64,000 nt of DNA from NCBI RefSeq assembly GCF_003990725.2, contig NZ_CP030064.1, positions 2,542,001 to 2,606,000 of the forward strand, in the 5' to 3' direction. The stretch is from Halorubrum sp. PV6 (lineage in GTDB: Archaea > Halobacteriota > Halobacteria > Halobacteriales > Haloferacaceae). The stretch's first letter is position 1; each line of letters begins with the position of its first letter. The notes under the pieces are model-generated. The model was not told where the DNA came from. It saw only the letters and a list, made by a program, of their open reading frames with translations, and did no database searches. This document shows, piece after piece, positions 45,713 through 55,014 of this stretch. A program made the position numbers and the translations under genes.

Positions 45713-46309
45713 ATGTTCGAAACAATACTGGACGAGGAAGAGCGCGGGCAAGTGGGGATCGGGACCCTCATCGTGTTCATCGCGATGGTGCTGGTGGCGG
45801 CGATCGCCGCCGGCGTCCTGATCAACACCGCCGGGTTCCTTCAGACGCAGGCGGAGGCAACGGGCGAAGAGAGTACAAGTCAGGTCAGTGACCGGCTGCA
45901 GATCGTGAGTCAGTCTGGTAACGTATCGGACGATTCCAGTGGCACTCGAGTTGTCGACCAGCTGAATATTACGGTGGCGCAGTCACCGGGAGCAGGTAAC
46001 ATCGATCTTAACGAGACGACCGTTGAGCTCATCGGTACGCAAGGACAAGAGAACTTCCAGCTTGACGCTCCAAACGCGACAATCGACATCTACACTGGGA
46101 GTCCGGGAGATGTCGTTCTGACAGACGCCAGCGATCGCGCTGATGTCGGCATAAACCTCAATACGAGTACGACAACTGGTGTCTACGGAAATCTTGAGGG
46201 AGGTGACCGGCTCCAGATAACATTCACGACGGCGTCAGGCGCTACCACGACCGCGGAACTACGTGTCCCGACCACGCTGACGGATGAACAGACTTCGGTG
46301 AGGCTGTAA
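45713..46309 (+). CDS. flaB: Archaellin, first of tandem pair
   Basis: A 198-residue structural protein of the archaellum filament. The class III signal peptide [12 protein letters not shown] is cut before [20 protein letters not shown] by prepilin peptidase (site G/Q), leaving the hydrophobic assembly helix. The outer domain is Asn/Thr-rich with N-glycosylation sequons NVS, NIT, NET, NAT and NTS. The N-terminal third is nearly identical in DNA to the next gene; the outer-domain part is lower in GC and diverged. It is 2 nt from the second archaellin and transcribed with it. Confidence 0.95.
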
Positions 46310-46311
46310 CA

Positions 46312-47013
46312 ATGTTCGAGTTTATCAACAACCACGACGACCGCGGTCAGGTGGGTATCGGCACGCTCATCGTGTTCATCGCGATGGTGCTGGTGGCGGC
46401 GATTGCCGCCGGCGTCCTGATCAACACCGCCGGGTTCCTCCAGTCGCAGGCGGAGGCAACCGGTCAAGAGAGTACGGACCTCGTGTCCGAACGCATTGAC
46501 GTGACGAGCGAGGTCGGTATCGTCGGCAACAACTCCACGGGTGAACTGAAGGCTATCAAGATTAGTGTATCCGGCGCTGCCGGTGCTTCTCAGATCGACC
46601 TGTCAGAGACCACACTCCAAGCAGTTGGGCCGAACGGACAAGCAAATCTTGTCTTTACCGATACGAATGCTAATGGTGGAGGATCGATCGCGAACGCGAG
46701 TCAAATTAACGCGAGCGAGTTCGCCGTCCAAGATCCGGAAGGTAATTTCGTTGATTCCGGCAATGCCGTGCTCAGCGACGATACGGACTACACGATCGTC
46801 TTGAACCCCGGTGCGGAGCCGTTCGGGAGCATCGCAGAGGGTAGCGTCTATGAAGGTGGTTCGTACAACTACGCACACTTGCAAACCGACGACGCGTTCG
46901 GAGAGGGTCAGACCTCGTCACTCGAGATTGTCTCGCCGTCGTCGGCGACGACATCCGTCGAACTGAACGCACCTGACCTCTTCACCACCGACGGCGAAGC
47001 GGTCCGGCTCTAA
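46312..47013 (+). CDS. flaB: Archaellin, second of tandem pair
   Basis: A 233-residue archaellin. The signal peptide [11 protein letters not shown] precedes [20 protein letters not shown], with the same helix as in the first archaellin. The outer domain is longer (sequons NNS, NST, NAS twice) and differs almost completely. In Halorubrum, two archaellins can form one heteropolymeric filament (family knowledge). The low GC of the outer domain against a high-GC core suggests diversification or recombination of the exposed part. Confidence 0.95.
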
Positions 47014-47098: not shown

Positions 47099-47758
47099 AT
47101 GAGTGACCACGACGCACCGCCGGCCGACCCGAAAGAGCTCGATTTCACCGACGACGAGAATGTCGTCGAGATCGGGGAGGGCCGCTACGTCGTCGGAACG
47201 AACGGCCGGCCGAAGGTCCCCCGGTCACAGCCGGACCCCGCGCCCGACGACGGGGGCGGATTCGCCCCGGCCGACCCGACGAATCCAGGCGAGCAACGCC
47301 CACCGGGGCCGGGCGGCGGGCAGCCGCAGGCCGGCGGGTCCACGCAGCCCGCGGGCGCTCAGCCCGTCAGCCCCCAAGCGCAGGGCGGGCAGGCGGCGCC
47401 CGCAGTCGACCGGCAGTCGGTGAGTCGCTGGCTGGCCTCCTCCTTCGACGGCGACGGGTTCGCGTACGGCATCGACGCGACGCTCCACGCCAACGGGGAC
47501 ACCACCCGCCAGCGGATGGTGTCGAACGACGTGACGGCGACGTTCGACTCGCTCGTGACGTGGTTCGCGTCGAACGCCGGCCCGAATTCGCCGACGCCCG
47601 AGGCGCTCGGCCTCCTGCTCGTCGCGGCAGAGATGACCGTCGACGTGCCGCCGGTGGCGATAAAGCGGTTCGCGGCGAGCCAGGGGCTCACGGCGAGCGA
47701 CAGCATCGGCGACCTCGTACGCGCGGCCGAGGACGCCGGCGGCTTCCGGATCGAATAA
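47099..47758 (+). CDS. Conserved protein of haloarchaeal archaellum loci (DUF7500-like)
   Basis: A 219-residue cytoplasmic protein. The N-terminus (PKELDFTDDENVVEIGEGRY, then VVGTNGRPKVP) is followed by a Pro/Gly/Gln-rich disordered linker (about residues 45-105) and a compact helical C-terminal domain (about 108-219: SRWLASSFDGDGFAYGIDAT, LLLVAAEMTVDVPPVAIKRF). A TATTTTATC box about 27 nt upstream gives its own promoter. I associate it with motility loci by recollection and position; biochemical role unknown. Confidence 0.65.
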   Translation: MSDHDAPPADPKELDFTDDENVVEIGEGRYVVGTNGRPKVPRSQPDPAPDDGGGFAPADPTNPGEQRPPGPGGGQPQAGGSTQPAGAQPVSPQAQGGQAAPAVDRQSVSRWLASSFDGDGFAYGIDATLHANGDTTRQRMVSNDVTATFDSLVTWFASNAGPNSPTPEALGLLLVAAEMTVDVPPVAIKRFAASQGLTASDSIGDLVRAAEDAGGFRIE

Positions 47759-47834: not shown

Positions 47835-48302
47835 TTATAAGAGTACGAGCAGCACGACCCCGATCAGCACGAAGACCGCGTACAGACCGGCCATCACCTC
47901 GCGTTTCAACGGGCTCCCGAGCGGCTCCGCGGTGAGCCGGCGGATCGGCGGTAAGATCGCGATCCCGCCGAGAATCAGGGGAAACGCGCCGATCTGCGGG
48001 ACCAGCGTGAGCGCGACGACGATGGTCCCGTATCCGGCGACGTAACAGCCGCGTCGCCAGAGCTGTTCGCGGTCGGAGAGTTGTGCGGTCGGAACGAAGC
48101 CGGACTCGTCCTCGCTGCCGGACTCGCCGCCGCCCATTCCGCCTCCGACTCCGCCGCCCGACTCCGCGGCCACCTGCTGTGCCTGTCGCTGCACGTACTC
48201 GTCCAGTTCTTCGGCCGCATCCTCCGTCTGGGGGGCACCGCACTCGACGCAGAAGCGATCCTCGTCGTCGAGCGACGAGTCGCAGCGGGGACAGGTCTTC
48301 AT
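47835..48302 (-). CDS. Zinc-ribbon membrane protein
   Basis: A 155-residue protein. The N-terminal zinc ribbon MKTCPRCDSSLDDEDRFCVE has CxxC pairs (second CVECG), followed by a Gly/Ser-rich linker (about 45-65) and two C-terminal membrane segments (about 87-115 and 132-155), ending VLLVLL. Double-zinc-ribbon/membrane proteins are common in haloarchaea with no known role. It is the only minus-strand gene inside the motility island. A GAGTTAAGTT box about 32 nt upstream supports ATG 48302 over the Met two codons earlier. Confidence 0.75.
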   Translation of the reverse strand: MKTCPRCDSSLDDEDRFCVECGAPQTEDAAEELDEYVQRQAQQVAAESGGGVGGGMGGGESGSEDESGFVPTAQLSDREQLWRRGCYVAGYGTIVVALTLVPQIGAFPLILGGIAILPPIRRLTAEPLGSPLKREVMAGLYAVFVLIGVVLLVLL

Positions 48303-48526
48303 CCTCATCGAAACGGCACCGCGACCGAACTTAACTCTTCGGAGCCGTGCCGACGGTTCGACCCGCGTTCGGTCTGCCGATTCGCTCGGTCACGGGTCGC
48401 GGCGTCCGGTTGGCGTTCTCCGCTGCGATAATTGGGAGGGTACGCTTTAGTCGGTGAGATCCGGACTATCGACAACGACGGGCCGTCCGCGGTGTGGGGC
48501 CTCGTTACGACGACTCCGATACCACG

Positions 48527-50860
48527 ATGACCTCCAGAGATTCACCGGACGGCACAGCGCGGCCCCCCCGAACGACGACCGATGCGCCCTCCAGCGGACG
48601 CGGTGCTTCGCGTCGCGAGTCCACGCTTCGCTCGCGGCTGGCCGCCCTTCGCGTCGTGTTGGTCGCACTCGCCGTGGTGCTGTCGCTCTTCGGCGGAGCG
48701 GTCGCAGGCCCGGCCGCGGCCGCGGTCGCCGACGACGACGGCGCAGCGGCCGGCGGGGAGGCGACCGCCGGCGACATTGTGACCCCCGCATTGGAATCCG
48801 GTGCGAGCGAGGCGGTCAGTCGAGAGATTAGCGGTGGGTTCAGCAGGGACATGTTTACCGGGACCGCGGGGGATCCGGTAGAGATCAGACACGTTGCCGA
48901 CGCCTCCGGGGACGACACGGCCTACATGCTGGTCGGCGGCAACCGCCTCACCGACTCGGGCGGAACGGTTGGGTTCGTCGACGTGCTGAAGGTGACCGGC
49001 TCGTCGACGGTGATCAACACCCGGCTTATGGGCACGGACGAGAGCAACGTCGACAGCTGTGCCAACGTGACCTGCGATCTCACATTTAAAAACAACGACG
49101 GTGAGGTGATCGCCGAGAACCTCTCGGCCCTTCACAACGAGCGGTCGATAGCGACCGGCGCTGCGGGCCTCGCTCGACCGCTCGCTCCCGAGCGGTACCG
49201 GCTCGCCGTCACCAACGGCACGTTCATCGTCCGGGACAACGGCGCCGTCGACCCCGTCAAGGTGGCCGCCGAGTCCGACCTCGTCTTACGGAGCCCGACC
49301 TTCCACGACGAGGTCGAGGTGTTCACGACCGCCGACGGCGACGTGATCGCCGACGGCGAGGGAGACGACACGGAGACCCTCGCGGACCTCAGGACGTACG
49401 GGACCGACCGGACGGCGGTGACGAAGGGCGACCGCGTCGTCCTCGGCTTCGAGTCGACGGGCATCTGGGGTGCGCTGTCACACTTCGCGGCGTCGGAGGG
49501 GCCCCTCGAATCGGATACGAGCATGAACCACACCGCCCTGGAGAGGCTTCTTACCGCCGAAGAGGGCGTCTCGCTTGAGATCCGTCAGACGAATCCGGGG
49601 CGGAACGATCGGGCGGCGACGTTCGACCTGTCGGACGCCGACGCAGACGACGTGAGGGTCTTCCTCGCGGACGGAACCGAACTCGAACGCGGCGAGGTCG
49701 ACCGGGCGCCGAGCCGGTTCTACCTCGCCATCGACACGAGCGACGGCGGGCCGTTCACCGACGACCCCGAGCCGGGCGACGAGTACGCGGTCGAGTTCGC
49801 GCTGGAGGGAACCGAAGGCGAGCGATACGCGTTCGACGGCGGCGGGCCGCCGGCCGCGTTCGACCCGGCACCCGCGTCGGACGACCGAGTCGGGGAGCAG
49901 TACCCGTACCACGGCATAGACGACGGACGGGTCAGCGCCGAGGCGACGTTCAGTATCAAAGAGCGGTTCCTCCGGTACGACCACGTGACAGACGACCGCA
50001 CGATCCTCGTCGAGGCGGGCAACGGGACCATTACGGGGACGACCTCCATCCTCCCTTCGGCAGAGCTGTCGGCGACGGTCGTTCGCGACACCGACGACGC
50101 CCCGAATCGGACAGAGTCCGAACTGACGGTGGCCAACGAGAGCTTCTCAGTTGACAGCGGTCTCGCCGGCGTCGCGCCGGGAACCAGAGCAAGCTACCGG
50201 CTGTATCGCGGGCAGTCGCTACAGGACAGTCGGCCGGTCCTCGTCGTGGAAAACGCCACGAGCCCCGCGAAACTCTGGTTCCGAAACGAGACGACGACGA
50301 CGAACCTGACGGTGACGCGGGGCGAGTCGCTCGCGAACCTCTCCGCGGCGATCCAGAACGTCGGACAGCTAGAGAACCGAGAGCAGCTGACCCTCGACGT
50401 CGACGACGGGGAGATAGTCGAGGAGCGGTACGTCACGGTCGGTCCGCAGCGGACGAAAAACGAGACGTTCGCGGAGACGGCAGTCGATCTGGAGCCGGGC
50501 GAGTACGAGTACACGCTCGCAATCGACGGGGACAGCGTGAACGGGACCCTGAACGTGAGAGCCGATCCGGCGGTGACACGGCTCGACGAGAGCGGCTCGT
50601 CCGGCGAGAGTGACTCGTCCGGCGACGTGTCGACCGACGAGAGTGGTGAGAGCGACGCCGACACGGGCGAGGAGACGGGAGAGGCCGCGGACGACGGCGG
50701 CGAGGAGACGGGTGCGACCTCGGGTGCTCCCGGAGACGGCGGAGAGACGCCGGACGAGGAGGGGCCGGCGACGTTCCTCCCCTTCGGTATCGGAACTCGC
50801 GAGACGTTCGGGGGGACGGTCCTCGTCGGCGCGACGTACCTCCTCGGTCACTGGGTCTGA
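48527..50860 (+). CDS. Large secreted N-glycosylated surface protein in the motility locus
   Basis: A 777-residue extracytoplasmic protein. A basic N-terminus and Sec-type signal (LRVVLVALAVVLSLFGGAVA) are followed by a long beta-rich acidic ectodomain with 13 Asn-X-Ser/Thr sequons, a stalk rich in Ser, Asp, Glu and Gly (about residues 690-745), and a C-terminal hydrophobic segment (ETFGGTVLVGATYLLGHWV) that ends the protein without the PGF motif and basic tail of archaeosortase substrates. I recognise no enzyme domain. It lies between the archaellins and cheY, in the same direction. Possible roles are adhesion, filament sheath or surface sensing. GTG 48494 is an alternative start. Confidence 0.75.
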   Translation: MTSRDSPDGTARPPRTTTDAPSSGRGASRRESTLRSRLAALRVVLVALAVVLSLFGGAVAGPAAAAVADDDGAAAGGEATAGDIVTPALESGASEAVSREISGGFSRDMFTGTAGDPVEIRHVADASGDDTAYMLVGGNRLTDSGGTVGFVDVLKVTGSSTVINTRLMGTDESNVDSCANVTCDLTFKNNDGEVIAENLSALHNERSIATGAAGLARPLAPERYRLAVTNGTFIVRDNGAVDPVKVAAESDLVLRSPTFHDEVEVFTTADGDVIADGEGDDTETLADLRTYGTDRTAVTKGDRVVLGFESTGIWGALSHFAASEGPLESDTSMNHTALERLLTAEEGVSLEIRQTNPGRNDRAATFDLSDADADDVRVFLADGTELERGEVDRAPSRFYLAIDTSDGGPFTDDPEPGDEYAVEFALEGTEGERYAFDGGGPPAAFDPAPASDDRVGEQYPYHGIDDGRVSAEATFSIKERFLRYDHVTDDRTILVEAGNGTITGTTSILPSAELSATVVRDTDDAPNRTESELTVANESFSVDSGLAGVAPGTRASYRLYRGQSLQDSRPVLVVENATSPAKLWFRNETTTTNLTVTRGESLANLSAAIQNVGQLENREQLTLDVDDGEIVEERYVTVGPQRTKNETFAETAVDLEPGEYEYTLAIDGDSVNGTLNVRADPAVTRLDESGSSGESDSSGDVSTDESGESDADTGEETGEAADDGGEETGATSGAPGDGGETPDEEGPATFLPFGIGTRETFGGTVLVGATYLLGHWV

Positions 50861-51025: not shown

Positions 51026-51382
51026 ATGGCAACGCGCGTGCTTATTGCAGACGACTCAGAGTTCATGCGGAACCTGCTCCGTGAGATCCTCGAAGGGGAG
51101 TTCGAGATCGTCGGAGAGGCCGAAAACGGCGTGGAGGCGGTGAACATGTACGACGAACACGGCCCCGACCTCGTGATGATGGACATCGTGATGCCGATCC
51201 GAGACGGCATCGAGGCCACGACGGAGATCCTCGAAGAGAACCCGGAGGCGACGGTGATCATGTGTACCAGCGTCGGACAAGAAGAGAAGATGAAGGCGGC
51301 CATCAAGGCCGGTGCTGAGGGGTACATCACCAAGCCGTTCCAGAAGCCGAACGTGCTCGACGCCATCGGATCGGCGGTATAA
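51026..51382 (+). CDS. cheY: Chemotaxis response regulator CheY
   Basis: A 118-residue single receiver domain. Acidic pocket LIADDSEFMRN, phospho-acceptor Asp in LVMMDIVMPIRDG, Thr/Ser in VIMCTSVGQEEKM and Lys in YITKPFQKP. Phospho-CheY signals to the archaellum through adaptor proteins and switches rotation. The stop overlaps the cheC ATG (TAATG). GATTAAG near 50991 is a likely TATA element about 30 nt upstream. Confidence 0.96.
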   Translation: MATRVLIADDSEFMRNLLREILEGEFEIVGEAENGVEAVNMYDEHGPDLVMMDIVMPIRDGIEATTEILEENPEATVIMCTSVGQEEKMKAAIKAGAEGYITKPFQKPNVLDAIGSAV

Positions 51383-52581
51383 TGCGGGTCGACGTCCGGG
51401 CGCTCGGCGCCTGTAATCGGCTGGCCGAGCGAGGGGCCGCGCAGGCCGCCGGCGCGCTCACCGACCTGACGGGGACGGACCTCTCGGTGGAGGTCACGGG
51501 CGCCAGCGTCGCGAGCGGCGAGGACCTCGCCGAGGCGTTCGCCGGCCGGGAGTCGATCGGCGTGAGCATCGGCCTCCGCGGCGGGCTGGAAGGCGAGGCA
51601 GTCCTCGCGTTCGACGCCGCCAACGTCGAGGCGCTGCTCTCGCTGCTTCCGGGCGGGGCGTCGATGGGGCGGAGCGCGGTGACGGAGGTCGGCAACATCG
51701 CGCTGGGCGGCTTCCTCGACGGGTGGGCGAACTACCTCGGGAAGGGGATCGACATGACGCCGCCGCGCTACTTTGAGGCCGATGGCGCCGCCGTCCTCCC
51801 GGACGGGGCGCTCGCTGGCGACGGCGTGTTCCTCTTCGAGAGCCGGCTCGACGCGACGACGACGGATCTCGACTTCTCCATTTATATGCTCCCGGACTCC
51901 GGGCAGTTCCGCGACCTCGTCGTGGGCAAGACCGCACCGGCCGCGGCGCCGGGCGCAGACGGGGGCGCGAGGAAGAGCGGCGCGGACAGCACGGCGGTCC
52001 CGTACGAGTCGCTGTCGACGTTCGCGTCGCTGGCGAAGCGCGGGTCCGCGAACGCCGCGGACAACATCGCGATGATGACCGGCCTCGAGACGACCGTCGA
52101 CGTGAGTCGGCTCCGGTTCGTGCCCCTCGCGGACGTGCCGGCCGAGGTGGGCGTCGAGCCGTACGCGGGGACCGTCTTCGAACTCCAAGGGGAGCCGAGC
52201 GGCTACCTGGCGATCCTGTTCGAAGAGGAGTCAGCGGCGAAGATCGCAGCTTCGATGCTGCCGACCGAGCCGGACGAGCCGCTCGGCGGGATGGCGGAGA
52301 ACGCGCTCTGTGAGCTCGGCAACGTGATGACGAGCGGGTTCATCGACGGGTGGGCGAACGTGCTAGGCACGTCGATCAGCCACTCGCCCCCGGAGTTCGT
52401 CCACGACATCGGGTCGGCGACGATCAGCCCGCTGGTCGCCAAGCTGAGCCAGCGGCAGGACTACGGGTTCGTCATCGACGCCGCGATCCAGACGGAAGGC
52501 GTCGAGACCCGGTGTGACGTGTACGCGCTCCCTGACGAGCGCGAGTTAGCGAGGGCCCTCGACCGCCTCTCGGAGTCGTGA
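51382..52581 (+). CDS. cheC: CheC-type CheY phosphatase, two CheC domains
   Basis: A 399-residue protein with tandem CheC domains (about 20-180 and 210-395). Each keeps the phosphatase consensus of Glu and Asn three residues apart on a helix: TEVGNIALGGFLDGWANYL and CELGNVMTSGFIDGWANVL. It dephosphorylates CheY-P and works with CheD. The double-length form occurs in several haloarchaea. It overlaps cheY at the start and cheD at the end by 1-4 nt. Confidence 0.93.
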   Translation: MRVDVRALGACNRLAERGAAQAAGALTDLTGTDLSVEVTGASVASGEDLAEAFAGRESIGVSIGLRGGLEGEAVLAFDAANVEALLSLLPGGASMGRSAVTEVGNIALGGFLDGWANYLGKGIDMTPPRYFEADGAAVLPDGALAGDGVFLFESRLDATTTDLDFSIYMLPDSGQFRDLVVGKTAPAAAPGADGGARKSGADSTAVPYESLSTFASLAKRGSANAADNIAMMTGLETTVDVSRLRFVPLADVPAEVGVEPYAGTVFELQGEPSGYLAILFEEESAAKIAASMLPTEPDEPLGGMAENALCELGNVMTSGFIDGWANVLGTSISHSPPEFVHDIGSATISPLVAKLSQRQDYGFVIDAAIQTEGVETRCDVYALPDERELARALDRLSES

Positions 52582-53096
52582 CCCATCGTCCGTCGTCCCG
52601 CGGAGGAGCGCTCGGCGGCGACCTCGACGGGGGTCGGATCAAGGTTGGCGTCAGCGATCTGGCGGTCGCGACCGACGGCGAGACGCTGACGACGAGCGGG
52701 CTCGGCTCCTGCGTCGCCGTCGCGCTCGCCGACCAGACGACGGGCGTCCGCGGACTGGTCCACGCAATGTTGCCGACCAGCGCCGAGACGGACACCGGCA
52801 TCGAACGGCCGGGGAAGTACGTCGACACCGGCATCGAGACGCTCATCGCCGAACTCGAGACGGCGGGCGCGGACCCCGGCCGGCTCGAAGCGCGCGTCGC
52901 CGGGGGCGCGGAGATGCTCGACATCACGGACGCGATCGGGCCGCGAAACGTCGAGCGCACCGAGGAGTACCTCGAAGCGGCGGGGATCCCGGTCGTCGAG
53001 CGAGCCGTCGGAGACGGCGTGGGCCGAACCGTCCGGTTCCGGGCGGACGGTCGCTTGGTCGTGCGGGCGGCGGACGGGTTCGAACGCGTTCTGTGA
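52578..53096 (+). CDS. cheD: Chemoreceptor glutamine deamidase CheD
   Basis: A 172-residue CheD. The catalytic Cys is in TSGLGSCVAVALAD, His in GLVHAMLP, and Ala-Gly-Gly in RVAGGAEMLDI where many homologues carry a catalytic Ser/Thr nearby. The start is a GTG in the GTGA overlap with cheC. It deamidates receptor glutamines and stimulates CheC. No cheA, cheB, cheR or cheW gene is in the window. Confidence 0.93.
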   Translation: MTHRPSSRGGALGGDLDGGRIKVGVSDLAVATDGETLTTSGLGSCVAVALADQTTGVRGLVHAMLPTSAETDTGIERPGKYVDTGIETLIAELETAGADPGRLEARVAGGAEMLDITDAIGPRNVERTEEYLEAAGIPVVERAVGDGVGRTVRFRADGRLVVRAADGFERVL

Positions 53097-53211
53097 GACC
53101 GGACGCGGGGCGGAGCGACGCGCCGTCGCCGCCGACGCACCACGGGTTACCTTCTCACGACTGATATTTTGAGGGGTGAATTGAAGTGTGTTCTGCGGGT
53201 CGTACACGATA

Positions 53212-55014
53212 ATGGGCCTCGAACTACCGGTGTGGGGAGCTCCAACGGCCGCATGGATAGTCGCCACACTGGGGCTCGTCGGTGCGAGCGTCCTCGACAG
53301 GTTCCTCGACGATGGCGACTCCGACGACGACTCCGGAGGCATGGACGGCGACGACGACCCATTCGGCGGTGGGATGGGAGGCGGCGGCGGTGGCGGTGGG
53401 ATGGGAGGCGGCGGCGGCGGTGGCGACGGCTTCGACGACTTCGACGGAATGGACGAGTGGGACGACGAGTTCGACGACGGCGGTGGCGGCGGCGGGTCCG
53501 ACACCGACGAGTTAGAGAAGCGACTCGACGACTTAGAAAACGAGGTCGCGTCGCTCTCGTCGACGGTCTCGACGGTCCGGTCGGAAAACGAGGAGATCTC
53601 GGCCGCCGTCGACGACATCGAGGAGGACGTGCGGAACTTACTCGACATCTACGAGATGGTCACCCGCGGAATCAACCCGTTCGTCGACGACTCCAGCGGT
53701 TTCGACGGGGTCGACGGCGGCGGCGAGGGGTCGTTCGGCCTCTTCGACGACGAGGAGGGCGACGCGGACGCGGACGACGACCTCGACGAAGACGTCGCGA
53801 ACGCGGACGCAGACGGGTTCTTCGACGACGACCTGCTCGACGACGACTTCGAGGACGACGACGAGTTCGGCGAGCTGGACGAGGAACCGGGCGACGACCA
53901 CACGGACGACGGCGACCCCGCCGACGCCGCGTCCGAAACCGCGGCGGCGGACGACGGAGACGACATGAACGACGATGGAAAGAGCTTCAGCGAGCTGAAA
54001 GAGGAGTACGACGCCGGGGAGGCCGACTGGGCCGACGAAGACGGCGCCGAAACGGAGGCGACCCAAGACGAGGACCCGTTCGACGACGGAGACGACTCGT
54101 TCGACGAGGACCTCGGCGGCGAATCGGACCCGTTCGACGACGAGCCGGCCGACGCCGGCGACTCGTTCGACGACGAGATGGGGTTCGACGACGAACCGGT
54201 CGACGAGCCGGCGGCGAACGGCCACGAGCCGGAGCCGGAGCCGGAGCCGGAACCCGAGCCCGACCGCTCGCGCGGCCAGCAGCCCGGCGGCGACCCGGCA
54301 GAGGCGAACGCCGGCGGCTTCGAGTACGTCCGCGAAGACGACCTGTCGGGCACGCGGGGGAAGCCGTACCTCACGGAGCTGCCCGGCGACTACGTCGGGG
54401 ACCTCCTCGTGATGGAGTGGCTGGAGTTCCTCGTCTCCGAGAGTGACGTCACCGACGCGGTGCGCGCCATCAACTACTACGAGCGCATCGAGTGGGTCGG
54501 CGCCGACGCGGCCGCGCGGCTCCGGGACTTCCTCTCCGGGTTCGGCACGATCGACCGCAACCTCGTCGACCGGCCGGGGACCGACCACCTGGTCCGCGAA
54601 CACCACACGCGCAGCCTCCGATACGTGACCCAGCTGAACGGGACGAGCGGCCACCTCCTGCTCCTCGACCGGTGGGACGACCTCGCCGGGGGGTCGCTGG
54701 TCGGCGGCGGCCCGCCGCCGGTCAACGCTGGCGGCCGCGGCAGACACGGTGGACGCGACCGCCGCCAGGCTGACCGCCGCGGCGGTCACGCCCCGCGCGA
54801 AGAGCGGAACGACCGCGACGGGCGGCGCCCGGGCGAGAACGGGCACGGCGAGACAGAGCGACGGGACGGGCGCGGGGAACGGCGGGACGGCCGCGCGGAC
54901 GCCGGCGCCGAAGGCCGCGAGCGCAACGGCGGCTCCTCACGACCGATGAACGACCCGAACCCGCGTTCCGACCGCGCCGACCCGGCCGACGGAGGGTGGG
55001 GCGATGGGCGTTAG
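53212..55014 (+). CDS. arlCE: Fused archaellum motor-scaffold protein ArlCE
   Basis: A 600-residue archaellum accessory protein linking CheY adaptors to the motor. A short hydrophobic N-terminus (WIVATLGLVGASVLDRF) is followed by Gly/Asp-rich low complexity, a coiled coil (about residues 95-130), the ArlC motif LLDIYEMVTRGINPFVDD, a 200-residue Asp/Glu linker, and the ArlD/E domain (about 383-490: PYLTELPGDYVGDLLVMEWL; LLLLDRWDDLAGG). The last 100 residues are Arg/Gly-rich and disordered, unusual for a haloarchaeon. ATG 53212 is preferred over one 24 nt upstream. The stop lies 11 nt inside arlF. Confidence 0.92.
   Translation: MGLELPVWGAPTAAWIVATLGLVGASVLDRFLDDGDSDDDSGGMDGDDDPFGGGMGGGGGGGGMGGGGGGGDGFDDFDGMDEWDDEFDDGGGGGGSDTDELEKRLDDLENEVASLSSTVSTVRSENEEISAAVDDIEEDVRNLLDIYEMVTRGINPFVDDSSGFDGVDGGGEGSFGLFDDEEGDADADDDLDEDVANADADGFFDDDLLDDDFEDDDEFGELDEEPGDDHTDDGDPADAASETAAADDGDDMNDDGKSFSELKEEYDAGEADWADEDGAETEATQDEDPFDDGDDSFDEDLGGESDPFDDEPADAGDSFDDEMGFDDEPVDEPAANGHEPEPEPEPEPEPDRSRGQQPGGDPAEANAGGFEYVREDDLSGTRGKPYLTELPGDYVGDLLVMEWLEFLVSESDVTDAVRAINYYERIEWVGADAAARLRDFLSGFGTIDRNLVDRPGTDHLVREHHTRSLRYVTQLNGTSGHLLLLDRWDDLAGGSLVGGGPPPVNAGGRGRHGGRDRRQADRRGGHAPREERNDRDGRRPGENGHGETERRDGRGERRDGRADAGAEGRERNGGSSRPMNDPNPRSDRADPADGGWGDGR

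Follow-up and report, generated by a model that had tools for sequence, protein, structure and literature searches.

A conserved C-terminal tail without a PGF motif on an S-layer-type glycoprotein of Halorubrum, and a zinc-ribbon membrane protein as its candidate partner

The 64,000-nucleotide stretch of the Halorubrum sp. PV6 genome analysed in this study (the window) contains, inside its motility cluster, a gene for a 777-residue protein that ends in a conserved tail unlike the PGF-CTERM signal. The C-terminal helix of this focal protein, together with its conserved end, may constitute a module for anchoring or sorting that differs from PGF-CTERM, with a zinc-ribbon membrane protein encoded next to it (znTM) as the partner; judged from the genomes compared, this explanation has about an even chance of being right. 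The body of the protein is of the S-layer-glycoprotein type, and its position among the motility genes seems to be a relocation specific to the genus. The features of the locus are as follows.

45713..47013, + strand: two archaellin genes (PF01917)
47099..47758, + strand: DUF7500 gene; in most of the other genera inspected, cheY comes directly after it
47835..48308, - strand: znTM, zinc-ribbon membrane protein of 157 aa, divergent to the focal gene; candidate partner of the tail (Zn_ribbon_3 over cut-off; alignment; co-occurrence with the tail)
48309..48526, no strand: divergent intergenic region between znTM and the focal gene, 218 bp
48527..50860, + strand: focal gene, S-layer-like surface glycoprotein of 777 aa (open reading frame, sequons, BGTF domain, AlphaFold2 model)
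48617..48691, + strand: hydrophobic helix near the N-terminus (aa 31-55), presumably the secretion signal (hydropathy of 2.55 across 19 aa; helix at 31-55 in the model)
49991..50251, + strand: BGTF surface domain, NF045517 (46.9 bits against a cut-off of 40, E 2.3e-12)
50273..50560, + strand: final Ig-like domain ahead of the stalk, aa 583-678, resembling CARDB (modelled as beta strands, pLDDT about 90; CARDB match at the corresponding place in a relative)
50582..50785, + strand: acidic Ser/Asp/Glu stalk, disordered (pLDDT below 50 over 686-757; composition)
50786..50857, + strand: conserved C-terminal tail, GIGTRETFGGTVLVGATYLLGHWV, with a predicted helix at 758-776
51026..51382, + strand: cheY (Response_reg, E 4e-30; position)

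The focal gene and the protein body

The reading frame is open from the ATG at 48527 to the stop at 50860 (777 codons), and it continues upstream as far as a GTG at 48494. The protein contains exactly 13 N-x-S/T sequons, compared with 4.2 +/- 1.9 expected from shuffles of the same composition, none of which (0/2000) reached 13 or more. Residues 690-752 comprise 20 D/E and 16 S/T residues and no K/R. The frame, sequon number and Ser/Asp/Glu stalk given by an earlier sequence-only reading were thus confirmed, as was the placement of the gene between archaellin and chemotaxis genes on the same strand; cheY, cheC and cheD lie downstream at 51026-53096, and znTM was additionally found on the minus strand between the DUF7500 gene and the focal gene. 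A TATA-like TTAAG, called by eye, lies some 26 nt upstream of the znTM start and is a putative promoter. Elsewhere in the archaellum cluster (53188-55014 of the window), a single 608-aa protein is a fusion of FlaC and FlaD/E domains.

In the AlphaFold2 model (41 aligned sequences), residues 99-685 form mostly ordered beta domains, followed by a disordered stalk (686-757) and a final helix (758-776). Tandem Ig-like beta domains were recognized both in this model and by Foldseek, whose best PDB match was the S-layer protein of Haloferax volcanii (7ptp_A of 7ptp, E 2.9e-9; structure described in PMC8640222), with many generic Ig arrays ranking close behind at similar scores. The BGTF domain scored over its cut-off in the focal protein itself; its relatives match CARDB and S-layer glycoprotein models, and DUF7827 weakly, below the cut-off of that model. 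Taken together, the BGTF match, the model matches of the relatives and the fold match with 7ptp identify the body as an S-layer-type surface glycoprotein, an already known kind of protein. The focal protein is probably secreted and presumably N-glycosylated, which agrees with its earlier description as a heavily glycosylated secreted protein.

Other searches added little. The model of the main S-layer glycoprotein (csg, TIGR04216) did not match the focal protein and gave 570 bits with a control S-layer protein. Pfam and PHROGs returned nothing for the body, no significant match came from a profile search against PDB sequences, the viral structure library yielded generic Ig and phage-fibre arrays only, and no relatives were found on plasmids. 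Among the papers found by the literature search, which covered subscription journals in part, none discussed this gene and none named BGTF or DUF7827.

Placement in the motility cluster

The close named relatives that were found all belong to Halorubrum, for example H. aidingense (66% identity), and in most genomes of this genus the gene order is archaellins, DUF7500, znTM (minus strand), focal gene and cheY. This conserved place was the main support for the earlier proposal that the protein is an archaellum-associated surface factor, which might act, for example, where the archaellum passes through the S-layer. A further point in favor is that G001, the sole Halorubrum genome without archaellins, also lacks the focal gene; however, DUF7500 and znTM are missing from it too. 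The linkage is not conserved across genera. All 20 arl loci retrieved from genera other than Halorubrum within the same family (L117-L136) lack both the focal gene and znTM, and cheY directly follows DUF7500 in 17 of them. Relatives in genera g32, g33, g48, g19 and g73 are located a long way from the archaellins or on different contigs, and in four g48 genomes the relative adjoins uvrA. The gene also occurs in a genome without archaellin: G353, which is 99% complete, carries the focal gene and znTM. Conversely, five Halorubrum genomes have lost or broken the focal gene and kept intact archaellin and che genes, which speaks indirectly against a requirement for it in swimming; in G010, G013, G018 and G032, znTM stands directly before cheY, and archaellins, DUF7500 and cheY are retained. 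In the fifth, G030 (L159, G030:C19), the focal gene is a pseudogene, disrupted at its place between znTM and cheY, and the cluster is otherwise intact.

The place of the gene in the arl-che cluster is therefore best read as a genus-level relocation in Halorubrum, which takes away the chief argument for a motility role. Both kinds of observation that the sequence-only reading had named as counting against it were made, namely homologs unlinked to motility genes and a homolog in a species without arl; a role as an archaellum factor is now very improbable. As part of the explanation preferred here, and with the same even chance, the link to swimming would be incidental and the protein independent of motility. 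Its location among motility genes is not enough to call it a motility gene, and a likely misreading is thereby removed.

The conserved tail and its co-occurrence with znTM

The C-terminus, GIGTRETFGGTVLVGATYLLGHWV-COOH, ends in LLGHWV-COOH and contains neither a PGF motif nor a basic tail, with no basic residues after the helix. None of the NCBIfam CTERM models, TIGR04126 included, matched it; the same library detected PGF-CTERM on a Halorubrum S-layer glycoprotein used as a control. The earlier observation that the PGF signal and basic tail of archaeosortase substrates are missing was therefore correct. The hydrophobicity of the tail is only moderate (mean 1.19 over 17 aa), and the end of the tail follows the conserved pattern G-x-R ... 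GG ... L-G-H-W-COOH. The last 24 residues are near-invariant across Halorubrum and come directly after the hypervariable stalk. With no CTERM model matching and no paper found in the literature searched (subscription journals again covered in part), the GHW-type tail appears to be previously undescribed.

The same tail ends a second surface protein, of 525-590 aa, whose body gave no BLAST match to that of the focal protein; the tail is thus carried by unrelated bodies. In the genome of the window, a second protein with a GHWV tail and an unrelated body is encoded at 7160-8755 of L069 (G000:C1, about 1021159-1022754 of the record), with a low GC3 (0.45). The second tail gene lies near an S-layer-type gene in L077, L079, L148 and L150 (family confirmed for L077). 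In G018 (L079, G018:C34:40000-58000) it directly follows DUF7500 in the archaellin cluster; an insertion or a contig break separates this cluster from znTM-cheY. Two further genomes, G003 and G031, show that the tail and the body can be separated. The bodies in their focal slot are 56% identical to a g33 relative and 29-30% to the focal protein of the window; their tails are 96-100% identical to the tail of the window and 33-38% to the g33 tail. The tree places the G003 body with g32/g33 (support 100/100), and the two genomes count as one shared event (94% identity). A crossover upstream of the tail would yield this combination without selection; body replacement at a fixed locus could also reflect diversifying selection, for instance by viruses. 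The replaced body (L033, L034, L084, L161) is a long g32/g33-type relative with an open frame of about 1230-1250 aa.

In the alignment, znTM comprises a CxxC...CxxC zinc ribbon joined by a variable linker to two or three hydrophobic helices, with an invariant L-P-P. Only zinc-ribbon models matched, with no known sorting-protease type among the matches, and no catalytic residues were recognizable beyond the zinc-ligand cysteines; the structure model is weak (pTM 0.36). In one genome (L137, G197:C1:998000-1014000), a stretch of 16 kb holds a relative of the focal gene together with znTM, genes resembling FtsZ/CetZ and archaeosortase, and a PGF gene of the S-layer type.

A znTM profile built from five sequences was searched in 392 Halobacteriales genomes and gave strong matches in 45. 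The C-terminal motif search across haloarchaea that the sequence-only reading had proposed found the tail in exactly these 45 genomes, and in two more (G156 and G280) as marginal partial matches. The 45 genomes are related and do not count as 45 independent events; roughly six genera, and four or five absences within genera, can be distinguished. Because the tail profile (A4) itself derives from relatives of the focal protein in most of these genera, positives there arise partly by construction. At the genus level, tail and znTM agreed in 6/6 znTM genera; within genera, G312, G377, G210, G361 and G001 lack both. Part of this match reflects common descent, and neighboring genes are co-inherited. 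Adjacency alone fails to explain it because znTM and the focal gene, adjacent and divergent in most genomes, are far apart in five (G082, G098, G178, G252, G325).

Four g59 genomes have a relative of the focal protein (E below 1e-145) and no znTM; the two relatives whose ends were read (G128, G243) finish in an ordinary TM segment and basic residues. In the Halorubrum genomes with the focal gene lost or broken, znTM is kept in 5/5 and the second tail protein occurs in at least 4/5, its last motif being degenerate in G013 (LLGHRV) and G032 (VLGLRV). Thus, znTM tracks the tail rather than the body of the focal protein.

Proposed role, alternatives and known systems

In the proposed mechanism, the focal protein would be exported via its signal peptide and would carry Ig-like domains, including BGTF, on an acidic stalk, with the C-terminal helix probably remaining in the membrane. 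The zinc ribbon of znTM is presumably inside the cell, and znTM would most likely receive the tail in the membrane by binding the helix or the GHW end. It could then serve as a fixed anchor adaptor, or present the tail before a putative processing step; no catalytic signature backing znTM as a protease was found in its sequence. The genome comparison suggests that tail and znTM may form a pair. Thus, the earlier suggestion of a different anchor type gains a conserved non-PGF tail that is also present on an unrelated body and is co-distributed with znTM, and the anchoring role itself is putative. The broader proposal is tentative and falls somewhat short of an even chance: GHW-type tails would be a new class of C-terminal sorting signal in archaea, read by a dedicated zinc-ribbon membrane protein rather than an archaeosortase, carried by one or two S-layer-associated proteins per genome, and matched with their partner genus by genus.

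The main rival of the pairing holds that an ordinary surface glycoprotein sits on a short C-terminal TM helix, and that znTM is a co-inherited neighbor only. The helix predicted at 758-776, the divergent adjacency in most genomes and the inflation of the co-occurrence by shared ancestry are all consistent with such a plain anchor. However, a plain anchor fits poorly with a tail that is near-invariant up to its last residues (HWV), that is found on an unrelated body and that was retained after body replacement; nor does it fit well with a znTM that persists where the focal gene was lost and is not adjacent to it in five genomes. We consider it unlikely, although a serious contender. Another possibility is that a general protease (rhomboid type or ArtA) cuts in or at the membrane, leaving the protein lipid-anchored or released, with znTM an accessory at most. 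The small GG/AA residues at the helix start may resemble intramembrane-protease substrates such as GlyGly-CTERM, and G197 has a relative of the focal gene, an S-layer gene and an archaeosortase-like gene together, but the tail has neither the basic cluster nor the PGF motif, and such processing seems improbable. The PF09721 (Exosortase_EpsH) search misses the Haloferax volcanii enzyme and therefore provides no count of ArtA.

Among known proteins, the haloarchaeal S-layer glycoprotein (HVO_2072/csg type, TIGR04216; PDB 7PTP/7PTR) is likewise secreted and sequon-rich, with Ig-like domains, a low-complexity stalk and a C-terminal helix, and it is distantly related to the focal protein via BGTF-type domains. 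In contrast, the focal protein is shorter, has no TIGR04216 match and has no PGF-CTERM; Halorubrum genomes carry csg-type genes separate from it, elsewhere in the genome. The BGTF surface domain-containing proteins (NF045517) share with it a domain that scores over the curated cut-off, but the model spans 88 residues only and is silent on the tail.

The prevailing view is that haloarchaeal surface proteins are attached largely through lipid anchors that depend on archaeosortase (PMC7157517). If the pairing is correct, the PGF-free tail and its specific membrane partner would add a second, new anchoring route in haloarchaea, and an unnamed zinc-ribbon protein would gain a function. Compared with PGF-CTERM/archaeosortase A, GlyGly-CTERM/rhombosortase and MYXO-CTERM/myxosortase, the tail has another motif and no basic cluster, each genome has no more than one or two substrates, and znTM is a small zinc-ribbon protein without a protease signature. 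As in those systems, a short conserved C-terminal signal occurs on different bodies, and a membrane protein has the same genome distribution as the signal; the GlyGly-CTERM/rhombosortase and MYXO-CTERM/myxosortase pairs were found by such distribution profiling (PMC3237569, PMC11980579).
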